A stretch of DNA of 47,220 bases, from assembly GCF_009498735.1 (NCBI RefSeq), contig NZ_ML762426.1, positions 198,955 to 246,174 of the forward strand, written 5' to 3'. This document shows, piece after piece, positions 39,397 through 47,220 of this stretch; positions within the stretch are counted from its first letter, which is position 1, and every line of letters begins with the position of its first letter. Position numbers and translations under genes: made by a program. The notes beneath the pieces are model-generated. The model did no database searches. It saw only the letters and a program-made list of their open reading frames with translations, and was not told the DNA's origin. The stretch is from Gracilibacillus oryzae. GTDB taxonomy: Bacteria; Bacillota; Bacilli; Bacillales; Amphibacillaceae.

Positions 39397-42300
39397 ATGG
39401 ATCTTAAACTAACCAAGGTTGGGAGGAACAAGAGGAAAAAGGGAAAGGCACTATACATACTTCTTATTTTTGCACTAGTGTTTTCTTCTTTTGGCCAAAT
39501 CGCTGCCGCTCCACTTCCGGAAACGGAGTATGGCACAGTCTTGGACACACGACAGGTGGAACTGGTTCCTGATGTGAATTATTCGTGGCGTAATATGGAA
39601 ACAGAGCATGGATTACAGAAAATGCACATGGTGGAGTTTGACCCTGCAAATGAACATCTAGAATTGCAGGGAGGGACGAGCAAGGGAAAAGTGCGTGGTT
39701 TTCAACAATTGACCGGCATGGCAGAAAATGTTGATGCACCGGGCAATCGTGTTATCTCTGGGATTAATGGTGATTTTTATGAAGTGGCAACAGGTATACC
39801 AAATGGGATGTTTATCAATAATGGCGAAATCTGGAACACAGCAAACTCTGATAACCGCTATGCATTTGGGATTACAGAAGATGGAAGAAGTGTATATGGA
39901 CAACCGAATAAGCATCTGACAAAGGAATTGCTGATTAACGGTCAAACACACAAAATTAACCATATCAATCGTTCGCGTGGAGATAATCAGCTTGTCTTGT
40001 ATACGGATAAATATTTCACTTCTACCCAAACGAATGGCAGTGGAGATGAAGTTATTGTAAAAATCGTATCAGGTAACGTGAAAAGTGGCGAAACTTTGGT
40101 AATGGAAGTTGTGGAAGTTAAGAAAGATCAAGGGAATACGAAACTTGTTGAAGGACATGCTGTATTGTCTGCTAGCGGCACAGCAAGAAACGCCTTAGCA
40201 GGCCTAAAAGCTGGAGACCAGATCGAAGCAAGTTTTCAATTTGAAGCTCCATGGGATGAAGTAGTGACAGCAATCGGTGGTTCTGCCATGCTTGTTGAAG
40301 ATGGTGTGGCAAACACAGATGCAACCAATGGGGTACACCCCCGCAGTGCAATCGGTACGAAAGCAGATGGGTCCATTGTTATGTTCGAAGTGGATGGACG
40401 TCAGCCTGGATTTAGTGAAGGATTAGGACTTGGAGATCTTGCGCAAGTAATGAAGGATTTAGGTGTCGAAAATGCGATTAATTTAGATGGCGGTGGATCG
40501 TCAACTTTTATTGGAAGAATGCCTGGTGATACATCTGTGCAAATGTTAAACAGCGGTTCAGATGGCGGGGAACGTAGTAATGCGAACGGATTGCTGCTCG
40601 TTAGTACAGCGCAGGAAACAAATGTAGCGGAAAAGTTGGTCATTGACCCTTCATTTGAGCGGATTTTAGCTGGATCAAGTCTTCCGTTAGAAGCATCTGC
40701 TGTTGACAGTAATGGACATGCTGTTTCATTTGATGGAGAGTTAAACTGGAGTGTTGCTGAAGGACTTGGTTCTATAGCAAACGGGCAGTTTACAGCAACT
40801 GACAAGTCAGCTGCAGGAGAAATTCGCGTATCATCAGCAAATGTAAACGATGGAGTGGCAACTGTTGAAGTTGTCGACCAATTAACAGATTTACAGTTGG
40901 AAACAGCGGAAATGGCAGTTATGCCTGGTGAGTCAGTTAAATTGGATGTTACTGCATTAAGAAATGGACAAGTCATTCAGTCGGATGCAGGCCAGTTTGA
41001 CTGGAAGGTTGAAGGGGATATAGGTTCGATAACTGACGCAGGTGTTTTTACAGCTACTGAGCAAGATGCAGTAGAGGGAAAAATTATTGTAAGCTATGGC
41101 GATATTGTGACTGAAATGAGCATTAATGTTGGGATGCCGCCAGTGGCAGTGGAAGATTTTGATGGTTTTAAAGAAGAATTTGTATTTACTGATCGTTATT
41201 ACACTCAGTCTGGGGCGGCATATGCATCCGTAAACGCTGGATTGGAATCGAATCCGGATTACGTCCGTTCAGGTGATCATTCCCTGCGTCTTGACTATGA
41301 TTTTAGAGGGAAAACAGGAACATCGGGAGCCTACTTGACAGTAAGAGGAACTAGCAATCGACTAGAGATTCCAGGTTACCCGACAAAGTTAGGTATGTGG
41401 GTCTATGGTGATGGCCAAGGACACTGGTTGCGCGCTCAGTTACGTGATGGTGATAACAACGCCGTTCCGGTGAATTTAACTGGCAGCAATCCAGGAGTAG
41501 ACTGGGTTGGCTGGCGATATGTTGAGGCGAGCATTCCGCAAGGCCGTCCATTGCCACTGTCGATTGATATGCCAGTTCGTTACATGGAAACAAGTAATAA
41601 TAATAAAACAGCTGGAACTTTGTATGTTGATGATATTCGCGTAATGTACGGGGAAGTGGAAGAAGACCGTGAGCCGCCGGTTATCCGTGATATTTATCCA
41701 GCTGCCAACGAAACGATTGATACAAATATGCCAACAATTCAGGTATTTGCCGAGGACGCGCATTATGATCCAGAGCTGCATCCTGCCAATACTTTAATCA
41801 ATCCTGATAAAATCCGGATGTATGTGGATGGTGAACAAGTGGAGCCTGCATTGTATCCACTTAATGGACAAATCAGCTATACACCAGAGGAGAGCCTGAG
41901 TGACGGTATTCACCATGTTAAGCTTGCGGTACGCGACATGTCTGAGAATGAGACCATTCATGAATGGCAGTTTAATGTCGATACCGGCTCATCAAAATTT
42001 AGTTACACTACTCCAGAAAATGTGTATGCGGGCCATACTTATACTGTCGACATTACAGCAAATCAGGTTGAAAGATTGAGTGGTGGTCATTTAGCTTTCC
42101 AATTTGATCCGAATCAAACGGAAAATTGGTCAGTTTCACCGCATTCTTTGCTTGCAGAAGGTCAAGTAAGCAGCGAAATGGATCAGAATGGGCTAGTTAA
42201 GGTTATGTTTGAAAACCTGGAGAATCAGAGTTTAACAGATGAAGATATACTTGCACAGATTCACTATACGGTTAAAGGTGCGGCTGCAGGAACAAATCAG

Positions 42301-45300
42301 ATTCAGTTCGTTTCTGGAGATATGCTGCAAGTCGGAGGTTCCGAACCGCAAAGCTATGCAGGTGAAAATCTTGCATCACAAATTGGCCATGAGCTTAGCC
42401 TCGAGTGGGATAACCAATATGCACAAGGGCAGACGACAACTTTTACAGTGAAGGATGAACAAGGACAGCCTGTTGCTGGTGCAGCTTTGTATGCGAACGG
42501 TGAGCGTGTTGGTGATGAAAGTGTAGTAACTGATGAGAACGGATTGCTGCAAACAGCGTTATTAACGCAAGAAGTAACAACACACAGTATTCAGGCAGTG
42601 GAAGGCATCCGTCACAGTCAATTGCAAGAGTTTGAGATTTCTGAACTTTCGGGAAATATGGAACCATACAATATTAGTGTTGCGATGGGTGTGGAACCTG
42701 CAACGGAGAGAAAATTCAACTGGAATACTCACCCTGAGATTGATAATACTGTTGTAGAAGTTGTGAAAACAGAAGAGTTTACTAGTTTTGATGCAGAAAA
42801 TGTAATAATGTATCGAGGATCCAACTATTCGTACAATACAACATTAGGTGGAACGATCCGTGTTCATAAAGCAAGTGTGGACGGTCTGGAATCAGGAACT
42901 TCTTACACGTACAGAGTAGGAGATGGAGAAGGGTATTACAGTCAGACAGGTACATTTACAACAGCACCTGCTGCTGGTAATGAAACAAAATTCTTGGTGT
43001 TTGGTGATTCACAGGCTGGTTCACTGGAAACTTTCCAATTATGGGGAAATACGTTGGACCAAGCGATGAACAATAATCCGGACAGTGAATTCATTCTTCA
43101 TATGGGCGATATGGTCGACCATGGCCATAACGAACAGCAATGGAACTGGTGGTTTGAAACAGCACAGGAACATTTGCTTCACACAACGGTTCAAACGGTT
43201 GTAGGGAATCATGAAGTGACAGGAACTCGGATGAATGAAGATTATTTGGCACACTACAACAATCCCAGTACAAGTGCTCCTAATGAAGCGTTGGACGGAA
43301 CAGTTTATTCATTTAATTATAACAACATTCATTTTGTTTTCTTAAACAGTGAATATGATTATGCAGCACAGGGTGAATGGCTGCGCAATGACCTTGCTCA
43401 AAGTGATAAGGATTGGACAGTAGCCGTATTCCACCGCAGCCCATATGGCAGTACTTATGTAACAGAAGCTGTACAGGAACACTGGGTACCTGTCTTTGAT
43501 GAGTTTGGGGTTGATCTTGTTCTGAATGGCCATGATCATATCTATTTAAGGTCCCATCCAATGAAAGGTGGCCAGCAGGTTGCCGAAGGAGAAGGTACTA
43601 CTTATATGACGCCTGGTGCGACAGGAAATAAATTCTATGGTCTTACAGAATATCCTTGGCAAAAGATTGTCGATGACGAGAATACTCAAATGTACTCGTC
43701 TGTAGAAGTGAATGGAGAAAATCTTCATGTTATAACAAAAACAGTTGGTGGCAGAACAGTGGATGAATTTAACCTAACACCACTTGATAAGCCGCATGCT
43801 GATGAAGAAGTTTTACCAGATTCTATTACACTTAATAAAACAGAAGTAGAGTTAGCAGTAGGCGAGAGCGAACAACTTGAGGCAACAGTTTTACCGGAAG
43901 ATGCTTCGGAAAAGAGTGTAGAGTGGAGTGTTATTGATGAATCGCCAGTGGTAAGTGTTTCTGCTGAAGGAAAGATTACAGCCCTTGCTGCTGGGGAAGC
44001 GACAGTGAGAGTCACAAGCCAAACGAATCCAGACATTTTTGCAGAAGCAGTGATTCGCGTAACAGAAGATACTGGCGGAGAAGAACCAACAGAGCCTTCT
44101 ATTACTCTTAACAAAACAGAAGTAGATTTACTCGTAGGAGAAAGTGAACAGATATTAGTAACAGTTTTACCGGAAAATGATACTGACAAAGAAGTAGAGT
44201 GGAGCGTTGTTGGTGAATCTCCAGTGGTAAGTGTATCTCAAGATGGAATGATAGAGGCACTTACGACAGGTGAAGCAACAGTGAGAGTGGCACTCAAAGG
44301 GAATCCAGAAATATATGCAGAAGCAGTGATACGCGTAACAGAGGATACTGGGGGAGAAGAACCAACAGAGCCGTCTATTACTCTTAACAAAACAGAAGTA
44401 GATTTACTTGTAGGTGAAAGTGAACAGTTAGAGGCCACAATTTCAGCGGAAGATGCTGCAGACAAAGAAGTAGATTGGAGCATAGTTGGCGAGTCTCCAG
44501 TGGTAAGTGTATCTCAAGATGGGATGGTTAAGGCACTTGCAGTAGGTGAAGCAACAGTGAGAGTGGCACTCAAAGCGAATCCAGAAGTATATGCGGAGGC
44601 AGTGATTCGCGTAACAGAGGATACTGGTGTAGAAGAACCAACAGAGCCAGAATCTATCAAACTTAATAAAAATTCATTAGATTTAACAGTAGGAGAAAGT
44701 GAACAGATTTTAGCAACTATTTTACCTGAAAATACTACAGATAAGGGAGTAGAGTGGAGTGTTGTTGACCAGCCTTCTGTAGTGAGTATCAATGCAGACG
44801 GAGAAGTTACAGCACTTGCAATGGGAGATGCAACAGTAAGAGCAACAAGCACGGCGAATCCAGAAGTTTTCGCAGACGCAGTGATTCATGTAACAGAAGA
44901 TGGTAGTGAAGAGGAACCTTCTGATGTGACAGCACAGTTTACAGGTCCTGATCAAGTCCAAGCTGGGGATGAACTCACTTTACTTTATGGACTAAAAGGG
45001 ATAAACGGGCAGCTTCCTGCTCAGCATGTTACGATTCATTATGACGAAGCGCAACTTACCTTTGAAGGTTTTGCAGAAACAGCAGAGAAGGAAGGATTCA
45101 GCATCTTATCTCACGAGCATACACCTGGTGAAATCCAATTTGTCGCTGTAGATCAGTCAGAAGATGCAGAGGCCTTAAATGAAGCATTACAAAAGTTAAC
45201 TTTCCGTGCGAATGAAACAGCTGAATCAGGCATTACGGAAATTAACTTGGATGATGTGCTGATGGAAAATGAGAATGGGGAAGAAGTCCGTATACCAGGT

Positions 45301-45810
45301 ATGACTTTCGCAGTTACCATTCAAGTTGACGATAAAGCGGAAATAAACGATTTAATTGCAGAAGCACTCAGGTTGCATGACAACACCCAAGAAGGAAATG
45401 ATCCTGGAGAGTATGAACAAGGATCGAAAGAGAAACTGATGGAAGCAATCAAAGCAGCACAGCTTGTAGCAGATGACAGCACTGCAACAAACGAAGAATT
45501 AAATCAGGCGGTTAACAAGCTTACAGAAGCAATTCACGAATATCGGAATGCAGCAAATCCTTCACGCCCTGATGAAGACGATGATGATAATAATGATGGA
45601 GGATCGAACCAGCCTAGTGACCCTGAGCCAAATGAGCCTGAAGAAGAACCAGAATATACGGTAGGTGATTTGGATGAAGTATCGAACACTTATGGTATTA
45701 CAAGGGATCATCCAGATTGGGAAGAATATGAAGAACTTGATTTTAACGACGATGGAGAAATTGGGTTAGAAGATCTTGTGCATATGGCCCGTCATATCCT
45801 GAAAGATTGA
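39397..45810 (+). CDS. 2137-residue exported multidomain enzyme: phosphodiester glycosidase + metallophosphatase, cohesins and dockerin-like C-terminus
   Basis: The signal peptide is 1-38 (IAAA|P). Residues 90-405 form a phosphodiester glycosidase (NAGPA-like) domain with GINGDFYEV (122-130) and NLDGGGSSTF (362-371). Then come two Ig-like domains (409-580), a carbohydrate-binding-like jelly roll (585-758), a cohesin-like domain (866-1000) and an Ig-like domain. A purple-acid-phosphatase-type unit follows (1090-1440) with FGDSQ (1203), GDMVDHG (1237), GNHE (1270), H1346 and GHDH (1378). After it are four BIG2 repeats (1476-1837), a second cohesin-like domain (1847-1978), a FIVAR domain (1980-2055), an acidic linker and a dockerin-like end (2087-2137) with the calcium loop DFNDDGEIGLED (2115-2126). 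AGGAGG precedes the ATG. It likely removes sugar from phosphodiesters and then phosphate outside the cell. Confidence 0.88.
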   Translation: MDLKLTKVGRNKRKKGKALYILLIFALVFSSFGQIAAAPLPETEYGTVLDTRQVELVPDVNYSWRNMETEHGLQKMHMVEFDPANEHLELQGGTSKGKVRGFQQLTGMAENVDAPGNRVISGINGDFYEVATGIPNGMFINNGEIWNTANSDNRYAFGITEDGRSVYGQPNKHLTKELLINGQTHKINHINRSRGDNQLVLYTDKYFTSTQTNGSGDEVIVKIVSGNVKSGETLVMEVVEVKKDQGNTKLVEGHAVLSASGTARNALAGLKAGDQIEASFQFEAPWDEVVTAIGGSAMLVEDGVANTDATNGVHPRSAIGTKADGSIVMFEVDGRQPGFSEGLGLGDLAQVMKDLGVENAINLDGGGSSTFIGRMPGDTSVQMLNSGSDGGERSNANGLLLVSTAQETNVAEKLVIDPSFERILAGSSLPLEASAVDSNGHAVSFDGELNWSVAEGLGSIANGQFTATDKSAAGEIRVSSANVNDGVATVEVVDQLTDLQLETAEMAVMPGESVKLDVTALRNGQVIQSDAGQFDWKVEGDIGSITDAGVFTATEQDAVEGKIIVSYGDIVTEMSINVGMPPVAVEDFDGFKEEFVFTDRYYTQSGAAYASVNAGLESNPDYVRSGDHSLRLDYDFRGKTGTSGAYLTVRGTSNRLEIPGYPTKLGMWVYGDGQGHWLRAQLRDGDNNAVPVNLTGSNPGVDWVGWRYVEASIPQGRPLPLSIDMPVRYMETSNNNKTAGTLYVDDIRVMYGEVEEDREPPVIRDIYPAANETIDTNMPTIQVFAEDAHYDPELHPANTLINPDKIRMYVDGEQVEPALYPLNGQISYTPEESLSDGIHHVKLAVRDMSENETIHEWQFNVDTGSSKFSYTTPENVYAGHTYTVDITANQVERLSGGHLAFQFDPNQTENWSVSPHSLLAEGQVSSEMDQNGLVKVMFENLENQSLTDEDILAQIHYTVKGAAAGTNQIQFVSGDMLQVGGSEPQSYAGENLASQIGHELSLEWDNQYAQGQTTTFTVKDEQGQPVAGAALYANGERVGDESVVTDENGLLQTALLTQEVTTHSIQAVEGIRHSQLQEFEISELSGNMEPYNISVAMGVEPATERKFNWNTHPEIDNTVVEVVKTEEFTSFDAENVIMYRGSNYSYNTTLGGTIRVHKASVDGLESGTSYTYRVGDGEGYYSQTGTFTTAPAAGNETKFLVFGDSQAGSLETFQLWGNTLDQAMNNNPDSEFILHMGDMVDHGHNEQQWNWWFETAQEHLLHTTVQTVVGNHEVTGTRMNEDYLAHYNNPSTSAPNEALDGTVYSFNYNNIHFVFLNSEYDYAAQGEWLRNDLAQSDKDWTVAVFHRSPYGSTYVTEAVQEHWVPVFDEFGVDLVLNGHDHIYLRSHPMKGGQQVAEGEGTTYMTPGATGNKFYGLTEYPWQKIVDDENTQMYSSVEVNGENLHVITKTVGGRTVDEFNLTPLDKPHADEEVLPDSITLNKTEVELAVGESEQLEATVLPEDASEKSVEWSVIDESPVVSVSAEGKITALAAGEATVRVTSQTNPDIFAEAVIRVTEDTGGEEPTEPSITLNKTEVDLLVGESEQILVTVLPENDTDKEVEWSVVGESPVVSVSQDGMIEALTTGEATVRVALKGNPEIYAEAVIRVTEDTGGEEPTEPSITLNKTEVDLLVGESEQLEATISAEDAADKEVDWSIVGESPVVSVSQDGMVKALAVGEATVRVALKANPEVYAEAVIRVTEDTGVEEPTEPESIKLNKNSLDLTVGESEQILATILPENTTDKGVEWSVVDQPSVVSINADGEVTALAMGDATVRATSTANPEVFADAVIHVTEDGSEEEPSDVTAQFTGPDQVQAGDELTLLYGLKGINGQLPAQHVTIHYDEAQLTFEGFAETAEKEGFSILSHEHTPGEIQFVAVDQSEDAEALNEALQKLTFRANETAESGITEINLDDVLMENENGEEVRIPGMTFAVTIQVDDKAEINDLIAEALRLHDNTQEGNDPGEYEQGSKEKLMEAIKAAQLVADDSTATNEELNQAVNKLTEAIHEYRNAANPSRPDEDDDDNNDGGSNQPSDPEPNEPEEEPEYTVGDLDEVSNTYGITRDHPDWEEYEELDFNDDGEIGLEDLVHMARHILKD
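43822..44930 (+). repeat. four tandem BIG2-encoding repeats inside the surface enzyme gene
   Basis: Units begin at 43822, 44098, 44374 and 44653, giving periods of 276, 276 and 279 bases (92-93 codons). Each encodes an Ig-like fold starting S-I-x-LNK and ending AEAVIRVTEDTG. Units two and three are nearly identical in DNA over long stretches (for example VGESPVVSVSQDGM), indicating recent duplication or gene conversion. They act as a spacer between the phosphatase and the second cohesin. Confidence 0.9.
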
Positions 45811-45815
45811 TTCAG

Positions 45816-45853
45816 AACGGGAGCGGCTGTAATAGCCTCCCTCCCGTTTATTT
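45816..45853 (+). terminator. terminator between the surface enzyme and the SLH-cohesin gene
   Basis: AACGGGAG pairs with CTCCCGTT, with a further GGCT/AGCC pairing inside, followed by a TTTATTTCTT tail. The imperfect tail could allow readthrough into the gene starting 25 bases later. Confidence 0.7.
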
Positions 45854-45877
45854 CTTAGTTGGAAAGGAGCGTTTATT

Positions 45878-46957
45878 GTGAAACAAAAATCTATATTCTC
45901 ATCGATACTATTCAGCTTTCTTCTGCTTTTCATTCTGCCATTTGGGTCAGTCTCAGCGGCTGCATCATTTGATTGGAAAACAGATGCAGAAGAAGTTATT
46001 ATTGACGAGGAATTTACTGTTGAGATTAATGGCCAGGACTTGGACGATATTTACGGATACGAGATTTTGCTTGAATATGATCCACAATACTTCCAATTTG
46101 TAGAGGCAGACAGCAGCTTATCTGATCAGATGTTTCATATTGAGGGAGAGAACGGAAATCAACAAATATTGTTAGGTACAAAAATTGGAGAAGTAAGTGG
46201 AGATAACGGGGACCTTGAGCTGATTAAGATTGTGTTTAAAGCTTTGAAGGAAACCGATGGAAGTGAAATGACATTAAAAAGTATTAAAGTGGCGGACTCA
46301 CAGGCAGAATCGGAGTTTTATGAGTTGAATAAGGAGCTAAGTCTTGTTGTTACTGAGGAAAAGCCAGCAGAGGAAGTACCAGTGGAGGAAGAGCCGGTTG
46401 AAGAGGAACCAGCCGTACCAACTGCTGAATTTACAGATATTGATGGCCATTGGGCGGAAGCAAAAATCGGTCGTGCGGTAGAACTGGGAATGATTCAAGG
46501 TTATGGCGATGGAACATTCCGTGCAGATAACAAGGTGTCCCGTGATGAGTTTGCGGTTATGCTGCAAGCAATACAACAGTATGATACTAATCCTGGAAAT
46601 GTAGAGTTGCCAGCAGATTATAACAGCATTGGTCCATGGGCAAGAGATGCAGTCATTGCTTTGATGGGAGAAGGAATTCTTTCAGGCTATGATGATGGTA
46701 CTTTCCGTCCTGAACAATCTCTTCGCCGCAACGAACTTGCGACAATTTTAGCTGCTACCCTTGATTTGGATGTTTCTGAATGGATCGAACCAGATTATAA
46801 AGACGCAGAGGATATTCCAGCATGGGCTGCACCTTCTATCGGCGCTGCTAGTGATGCCGGCTTACTGCATGGTCGTGACGGTGGCTATTTTATGCCAAAT
46901 GAAACAACTACACGTGCTGAGGCAGTTCAAGTTCTGTTGACAATTTATGATTATTAA
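45878..46957 (+). CDS. surface anchor: cohesin-like domain + three SLH domains
   Basis: This gene encodes 359 residues starting at GTG, with GGAAAGGAG eight bases upstream. A signal peptide ends about residue 27 (SVSA|AAS). A cohesin-like domain (about 29-157) follows, with strands such as VEINGQDLDDIYGYEILLEY and PQYFQFVEAD. Next is a Pro/Glu linker (158-183). Three SLH domains (about 186-230, 247-292 and 305-359) carry the conserved GYGDGTFRADN, GYDDGTFRPEQ and GRDGGYFMPN turns with TRAE/SRDE-type residues. SLH domains bind pyruvylated secondary cell wall polymer, and cohesins bind dockerins. It is therefore the expected wall anchor for the dockerin-bearing enzyme encoded just upstream. A terminator follows. 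Confidence 0.9.
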   Translation: MKQKSIFSSILFSFLLLFILPFGSVSAAASFDWKTDAEEVIIDEEFTVEINGQDLDDIYGYEILLEYDPQYFQFVEADSSLSDQMFHIEGENGNQQILLGTKIGEVSGDNGDLELIKIVFKALKETDGSEMTLKSIKVADSQAESEFYELNKELSLVVTEEKPAEEVPVEEEPVEEEPAVPTAEFTDIDGHWAEAKIGRAVELGMIQGYGDGTFRADNKVSRDEFAVMLQAIQQYDTNPGNVELPADYNSIGPWARDAVIALMGEGILSGYDDGTFRPEQSLRRNELATILAATLDLDVSEWIEPDYKDAEDIPAWAAPSIGAASDAGLLHGRDGGYFMPNETTTRAEAVQVLLTIYDY

Positions 46958-47020: not shown

Positions 47021-47220
47021 CTGGCTCCTGCTAATCTGAAGATAAACAGGAAAAGTAGGAGAAGAAGCCAGCGGATTTCCTGTTAATCCGGAGATAAAGA
47101 GGAAAAGTAGGAGAAGAAGCCAGCAGATTTCCTGTTAATCCGGAGATAAACAGGAAAAGTAGGAGAAGAAGCCAGCGGATTTCCTGTTAATCCGGAGATA
47201 AAGAGGAAAAGTAGGAGAAG
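47021..47220. repeat. 52-bp tandem hairpin repeat, array D (runs off the window)
   Basis: A degenerate first copy (from 47021) leads to copies starting at 47049, 47101, 47153 and 47205, exactly 52 bases apart. Arms are ACAGGAAA and TTTCCTGT, a perfect 8-bp inverted repeat in alternate copies. The others have AGAGGAAA with one mismatch. The linker TAATCCGGAGATAA resembles the GCGATAAA linker of array B. The array is cut off by the end of the window. Confidence 0.93.

Follow-up and report, generated by a model that had tools for sequence, protein, structure and literature searches.

The locus studied here raises the question of how a giant secreted enzyme is kept at the cell surface. In Gracilibacillus oryzae a stretch of 47,220 nucleotides (the window; G000:C3:198955-246174, in a genome of 4.63 Mb) holds a gene for an exported enzyme with a NAGPA phosphodiester glycosidase and a calcineurin-like phosphoesterase domain, and directly behind it a gene for a small protein with one cohesin and three S-layer homology (SLH) domains (Table 1). 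Cohesin and dockerin form a plug-and-socket pair that is best known from cellulose-digesting complexes, and the enzyme ends in a dockerin-like tail. We consider it likely that the enzyme is docked noncovalently onto the one-cohesin wall anchor and that this docking replaces fused SLH domains. Both proteins would be exported, the SLH domains of the anchor being held by a wall polymer, and the single cohesin of the anchor would capture the C-terminal dockerin and thereby place the NAGPA-phosphoesterase on the wall in trans, where most Paenibacillaceae relatives of the enzyme have SLH domains fused in cis.

The gene pair and the tail of the enzyme

Both reading frames were recovered exactly where the preliminary description of this DNA had placed them, on the same strand, intact and with 67 bases between them. 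The signal peptide, cohesin and three SLH domains that had been claimed for the second gene were found together in one protein, the signal peptide by eye and the other domains as Pfam matches, as expected of an SLH-anchoring cohesin protein. The end of the enzyme had been called dockerin-like on account of a calcium loop at residues 2115-2126. This loop is present (window position 45739) and the tail has homologues; its first calcium loop, however, is degenerate in an alignment of such tails (A2), so that only the second of the two loops is intact, and the Pfam dockerin model (PF00404) gave no match to the tail at E≤10 in a search of the own genome, nor at E≤0.01 in a scan of the tail. The tail thus falls short of a type I dockerin as Pfam defines it, and it was assigned as dockerin-like through its alignment with homologous tails. 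The window tail shares the invariant residues D10, L11, Y18, G19, W27, D34 and A50 with 19 of these, and its best relative among the fetched open reading frames (ORFs) is the tail of the orthologous enzyme of Paenibacillus phyllosphaerae (48% identity, E 1.5e-12, blastp), which Pfam does recognise as a dockerin (29.4 bits, cut-off 22.9).

A search of the Protein Data Bank (PDB) with the window tail alone listed cellulosomal dockerins at the top, weakly (2mte, E 0.0042; 1daq, E 0.0046), followed by EF-hand proteins. Profile A2, of which the window tail is itself one row, matched calmodulins and the FIVAR-dockerin of Clostridium perfringens NagH at similar scores. Together with the missing Dockerin_1 match and the degenerate loop, the calmodulin matches would suit a tail that is a plain EF-hand or structural calcium module, with the SLH-cohesin as a separate surface protein that became its neighbour through clustering of surface genes. 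Sequence alone cannot tell a dockerin from an EF-hand; the genomic evidence does. When 34 tails, the window's included, were scanned at E≤0.01, Dockerin_1 was found in 27, cohesin in 22 and FIVAR in 15, and the adjacency and joint presence described below also argue for a dockerin. We regard a plain EF-hand as very improbable.

As a single tblastn query against 398 genomes of the phylum, the window dockerin retrieved only itself; this query was too insensitive and profile A2 was used instead. In the own genome, where further dockerin genes were looked for, the profile has exactly one match, on the NAGPA-phosphoesterase, and PF00404 adds none over its cut-off. The anchor-cohesin profile (A4) has one match there as well.

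Dockerin and anchor genes occur together

Co-occurrence was analysed in 51 genomes, 50 of them from the 80 enzyme family loci described below and one the window genome, with cut-offs of E≤1e-5 for dockerin and E≤1e-15 for a strong anchor-cohesin match, the latter set after a gap had been seen in the list. Dockerins were found in 29 genomes and strong anchor-cohesins in 20, all 20 of them among the 29, while 22 genomes had neither. The Fisher p is 1.7e-7, or 6.8e-6 when the six genomes from which the profiles were built are left out; both values are uncorrected and come from related genomes, which lessens their weight. SLH domains were checked in the loci that were read (none for G584; the match in G578 is a 1629-residue protein).

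The two genes are also neighbours. A dockerin gene lies immediately beside the SLH-cohesin gene in 26 of 33 loci, against 0.27 expected from uniform placement at one gene per kilobase; 25 of these were counted by script and one, L227, by eye, the ORF filter having lost its SLH-cohesin gene to an antisense ORF. Twelve regions had been chosen from SLH-cohesin search matches and 20 from part of the A4 list, these with the dockerin list in view and one adjacency (G565) already seen. One candidate, L216, was rejected, since profile A4 found no cohesin in it. Twenty of the 25 scripted pairs are on the same strand; the dockerin gene is upstream in 18 of these, and 17 gaps do not exceed 122 bases, measured from longest-ORF starts, so that overlaps are uncertain. 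Three further genomes of Paenibacillus (L217-L219, close relatives) each give a single match for the dockerin and a single one for the anchor-cohesin, adjacent in every case. The pair, which would have been put in doubt by relatives in which the two genes never stand together, thus recurs.

Changes of anchoring mode in the enzyme family

The middle region of the enzyme was searched against a collection with one genome per species, and the best 80 of 223 relatives were kept. SLH domains occur at 51 of these loci, a dockerin tail at five and an LPxTG signal at three; 19 have other ends and two were too short to use. The relatives from Paenibacillaceae mostly carry SLH in cis. An ORF scan of the 80 loci found no ORF with both SLH and dockerin, which is a further point against a plain EF-hand. 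In a tree of 86 rows, with seven LPxTG relatives from the family of the window added (one identical to an existing row, L062 = L154) and the short L133 and L149 left out, the six dockerin enzymes, the window's included, stand at three places, and the starred branches force at least three changes. Weaker A2 matches were seen in seven other family genomes; six are in a different segment, internal or without a stop within the locus, and the seventh (G143) starts 84 residues ahead of its stop.

In Paenibacillus sp. MAHUQ-63 and P. sedimenti an SLH-cohesin gene (343 and 352 residues) comes next after that of the dockerin enzyme, and the other three dockerin-enzyme genomes have a full-length SLH-cohesin gene elsewhere, so that all five hold one. 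At the other 78 family loci the ORF scan, whose filter could miss one as it did at L227, found no SLH-cohesin gene. Recent fission of an enzyme with SLH in cis was considered and rejected, because the SLH part of the anchor is closest to the SLH of other SLH-cohesin genes.

The enzymes of the window and of Gracilibacillus lacisalsi nest inside Paenibacillaceae, beside those of P. tarimensis and P. sambharensis, which carry SLH in cis. This would fit a transfer from that family.

The pair within Gracilibacillus

The nearest relative by enzyme is G. lacisalsi (G028), of the same genus and placed in Bacillaceae in the NCBI taxonomy. Its enzyme is 77% identical and ends after the FIVAR domain, without a dockerin. 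A search of its genome found no SLH-cohesin relative, and nothing convincing was found among possible dockerin or anchor remnants 3' of the enzyme (best E 0.49). The proposal of a minimal pair of dockerin enzyme and SLH-cohesin anchor in a Bacillaceae is thus supported by the single profile match for each in the window genome, by the recurrent adjacent pair elsewhere and by the joint absence in G. lacisalsi.

CsaB pyruvylates a wall polymer and so readies it for SLH binding. The window genome has CsaB (TIGR03609, 259.7 bits, cut-off 213.1), and with it the route for SLH anchoring, and it has other SLH proteins too; the match in G. lacisalsi is partial and under the cut-off (67.3 bits). These findings bear on whether the pair might be a decayed import from Paenibacillaceae, with a dockerin that is degenerating and no longer anchors. 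Such decay would agree with the nesting of the window enzyme among Paenibacillaceae rows, the degenerate first loop, the sister species without dockerin, and the transposase-like ORF and tandem repeats downstream of the pair. However, both frames are intact, CsaB is over its cut-off beside other SLH proteins, and the pair is kept in the three Paenibacillus genomes L217-L219, whose only dockerin is even more degenerate. A decayed pair therefore seems improbable to us.

Which cohesin is the partner

The Pfam search for cohesins in the own genome gave four matches in three ORFs; the enzyme accounts for two, the anchor for one and another large protein for the fourth. The last (L039:7418-10741, contig C1) is exported, resembles a rhamnogalacturonan lyase by eye and has no A2-type dockerin; its cohesin is another possible socket for the single dockerin. 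Both cohesin-fold domains of the enzyme exceed the Pfam cut-off and were absent from the preliminary description. The inner one is also present in enzyme relatives without dockerin, and the second lies beside FIVAR and dockerin, where it is an alternative partner.

The dockerin might accordingly bind the second cohesin of its own enzyme, or that of another copy, and form chains or closed dimers, to which the SLH-cohesin would be only the first link or unrelated. The main support for chains comes from the near-equal numbers of cohesins and dockerins in five Paenibacillus genomes (below). In addition, a Pfam cohesin lies within about the last 235 residues of 22 of the 34 dockerin tails, and in C. 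perfringens cohesins borne on enzymes are engaged in cohesin-dockerin complexes, according to the part of PMC12997984 available to us. On the other hand, G. lacisalsi has neither dockerin nor anchor and still has the second cohesin (59% identical), the window genome has four cohesins for its one dockerin, cargo without a Pfam cohesin is paired as well (L217, L220), and it is to the SLH-cohesin that gene neighbourhood links the dockerins. Docking of the enzyme onto cohesins of its own kind is in our view unlikely, though it deserves more weight than either a plain EF-hand or a decayed pair.

Besides this second cohesin and the features of the tail, several observations weigh against docking onto the anchor. 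Nine of the 51 genomes have a dockerin without a strong anchor-cohesin match. Adjacency becomes 24 of 31 when L099 and L101, which had entered through their dockerin enzyme, are left out; five of the 33 SLH-cohesin loci (L207, L208, L222, L233 and L236) have no dockerin gene nearby, in L212 it is two genes away, and in L224 the neighbour was masked. The five opposite-strand pairs among the 25 cannot be one operon, and co-transcription of enzyme and anchor in the window is uncertain because of a hairpin between the genes. The three changes in the tree can be gains or losses and may amount to one gain and two losses. A single protein of P. solani with 1629 residues (L232:8889-13775), counted among the 25, has an anchor-type cohesin, SLH and a dockerin and lies beside another dockerin gene, so fusing and docking are not strictly exclusive. 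Finally, the CsaB cut-off is not a clean SLH marker, because G022 and G034, which belong to the same genus, lack a CsaB above it in spite of their SLH matches.

A proposed larger docking system in Paenibacillus

The window pair belongs, as an outlying member, to a larger system of Paenibacillus. Sixteen Paenibacillus dockerin proteins were annotated: eight contain domains of glycoside hydrolases or lyases (GHL10, GH2, GH10, GH43, GH101, GH30, an arabinofuranosidase and PL8), two are NAGPA-phosphoesterases of the same family as the window enzyme, and six have no recognised catalytic domain. Among the last are L217:10018-13662 and L220:10080-13463, with DUF6359/DUF5689 and with both dockerin loops degenerate. 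The dockerin tails of L218 and L219 are near-identical.

Cohesin and dockerin matches in five Paenibacillus genomes number 25/21, 9/6, 101/at least 93, 121/at least 115 and 42/39, where the two counts used different E cut-offs; the window genome has four and one. The two largest sets, those of P. aceris and P. planticolens (G558 and G559; L102 and L104), compare in size with the largest cellulosome systems. One genome with 79 cohesins is named in the part of a 2024 survey that we could consult (PMC11557425). It is quite possible, if still tentative, that Bacilli, and above all Paenibacillus, dock enzymes without a dedicated scaffoldin, with single-cohesin SLH sockets for up to about 90-115 dockerins per genome and with cohesin-bearing cargo that may chain; the window would then show this system cut down to one phosphate-releasing enzyme and transferred to a Gracilibacillus.

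Predicted chemistry of the enzyme

The giant secreted enzyme probably strips phosphate off sugars. Its NAGPA domain is predicted to be a phosphodiester glycosidase from the Pfam match and the conserved motif NLDGGGS, seen here as NLDGGGSS at window position 40480 (residue 362). All five metal-site motifs of calcineurin-like enzymes are present (residues 1202, 1237, 1270, 1344 and 1378), and the key columns of the phosphoesterase are invariant across the eight rows of alignment A1. Among 75 family proteins of at least 1400 residues, the NAGPA motif is found in 71 and GNH[ED] and GHDHxY in all 75. Since the NAGPA and phosphatase-like domains stay together family-wide, two-step uncapping and dephosphorylation of a sugar-phosphodiester fits; as read from the domains, the NAGPA domain would probably cut the sugar-1-phosphate diester of a sugar-phosphodiester polymer and the phosphatase-like domain would then free the exposed phosphate. 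Big_13, Big_1 and FIVAR are weaker Pfam matches in the enzyme.

The same genome encodes a second NAGPA-like protein of 578 residues with SLH in cis (L067:4483-6219, contig C14), so the organism seems to use both modes of anchoring.

Relation to known systems

The pair had been described as cellulosome-like, and this holds for the principle of docking only. A cellulosome proper was rejected: the genome has one dockerin, no separate scaffoldin with two or more cohesins was found in the cohesin search (the sole two-cohesin protein being the enzyme itself), and no dockerin was found on a plant cell wall glycanase. The SLH-anchoring scaffoldins of Acetivibrio likewise combine cohesin and SLH for display on the wall by docking, as far as described in the part of PMC11557425 consulted, and profile A4 matches cellulosomal cohesins in the PDB (3l8q, E 4e-5; 5g5d, E 0.002). 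In contrast to Acetivibrio, the window genome shows no separate multi-cohesin scaffoldin and its single dockerin is not on a cellulase.

A second likeness is to NagJ and NagH of C. perfringens (X82 cohesin and FIVAR-dockerin; PDB 2ozn, 2jnk), which, as PMC12997984 relates at second hand in the part consulted, have cohesin and FIVAR-dockerin on large multidomain enzymes, as in the window. The enzyme tail with FIVAR has the NagH FIVAR-dockerin as its best PDB match, through FIVAR, and the anchor cohesin alone has the NagJ cohesin 2w1n as its best natural match (E 3e-4; a designed protein scores higher). NagJ is, however, absent from the matches of family profile A4 at E≤0.01. In C. perfringens the cohesins are on enzymes, whereas in the window the wall anchor is an SLH protein of its own with one cohesin, and the cargo differs in being a phosphodiester/phosphate enzyme.

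Cell-surface phosphoesterases of the ShfP/calcineurin-like group share with the window enzyme an extracellular calcineurin-like domain with FN3/Pur_ac_phosph_N. The consulted part of PMC11488536 mentions NAGPA and SLH among the fusion partners of such phosphoesterases and suggests that ShfP, a forespore protein of B. subtilis, acts on teichoic acid or similar targets; dockerin or cohesin fusions are not named in that part. In Paenibacillus curdlanolyticus B-6, a multienzyme complex also includes an SLH protein (S1), but S1 is without cohesin and the major xylanase without dockerin, according to the part of PMC6823336 consulted.

Literature was searched by title and opening of the abstract, with few subscription journals, and within this scope no SLH-cohesin anchor with a dockerin enzyme was found in Bacillales, an absence that is not proof. 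The impression that a system with this cargo had not been described thus stands for the literature searched; the pair itself is not unique to this cargo or to this genome. The 2024 survey covered 305,693 genomes and, in the part of PMC11557425 available, required a protein with at least two cohesins and one dockerin-bearing glycoside hydrolase, with Paenibacillus guangzhouensis among four genomes that barely meet this. Because at least two cohesins per protein were required, it could pass over single-cohesin docking in Paenibacillus.

If docking onto the anchor is true, enzymes can be held noncovalently in place of a fusion to wall-binding domains, and the two solutions are interchangeable: within one enzyme family there are members with SLH in cis, with a sortase signal and with a dockerin, the last at three places in the tree. 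It would also point to a Paenibacillus docking system that relies mostly on anchors with a single cohesin. Where a genome has just one dockerin and one anchor cohesin, the pair is minimal, readily testable and a natural means of displaying proteins on the surface; in the window its cargo is aimed at phosphate, not cellulose.

Features of the locus

Table 1. Features of the enzyme and anchor genes, with positions in the window
Feature	Position	Strand	Basis
NAGPA-phosphoesterase-dockerin enzyme gene, exported	39397..45810	+	ORF, 2137 aa; Pfam
Enzyme signal peptide, about residues 1-38	39397..39510	+	read by eye from sequence
NAGPA phosphodiester glycosidase domain, best stretch residues 248-401	40138..40599	+	Pfam PF09992, E 4.5e-35
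Inner cohesin-like domain of enzyme	42004..42315	+	PF00963, 38.1 bits; blastp
Pur_ac_phosph_N and calcineurin-like phosphoesterase, residues 1090-1383	42664..43545	+	PF16656, PF00149
Four Big_2 Ig-like domains, about residues 1476-1828	43822..44880	+	PF02368, E 4.9e-49, 4 stretches
Second cohesin-like domain of enzyme, beside FIVAR and dockerin	44929..45279	+	PF00963, 39.9 bits
FIVAR-like domain, residues 1994-2047	45376..45537	+	PF07554, 22-26 bits, under cut-off 29.2; matches C. perfringens FIVAR-dockerin 2jnk, E 1e-5
C-terminal dockerin-like domain, about residues 2083-2137, first loop degenerate	45643..45807	+	alignment A2; 48% identity to P. phyllosphaerae dockerin; A2 profile match
Intact second calcium loop DFNDDGEIGLED, residues 2115-2126	45739..45774	+	sequence motif
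Stable RNA hairpin, intergenic, then T-rich stretch	45815..45849	+	fold -20 kcal/mol, z -4.4
SLH-cohesin wall anchor gene	45878..46957	+	ORF, 359 aa, GTG start; Pfam
Anchor signal peptide, about residues 1-27	45878..45958	+	read by eye from sequence
Anchor cohesin domain, about residues 29-145	45962..46312	+	PF00963, 31.6 bits (cut-off 24.1), residues 42-142; alignment A4
Three anchor SLH domains	46424..46954	+	PF00395, 118 bits, 3 stretches

The hairpin between the two genes is a possible terminator or attenuator and as such would determine how much enzyme is made per anchor. Tandem repeats of 52 bp form two arrays (3.8 and 6 copies) 3' of the anchor gene (L040:1981-2585; at window position 47026 and past the window end), and beyond them an ORF that looks transposase-like by eye was found at L040:3312-4073.

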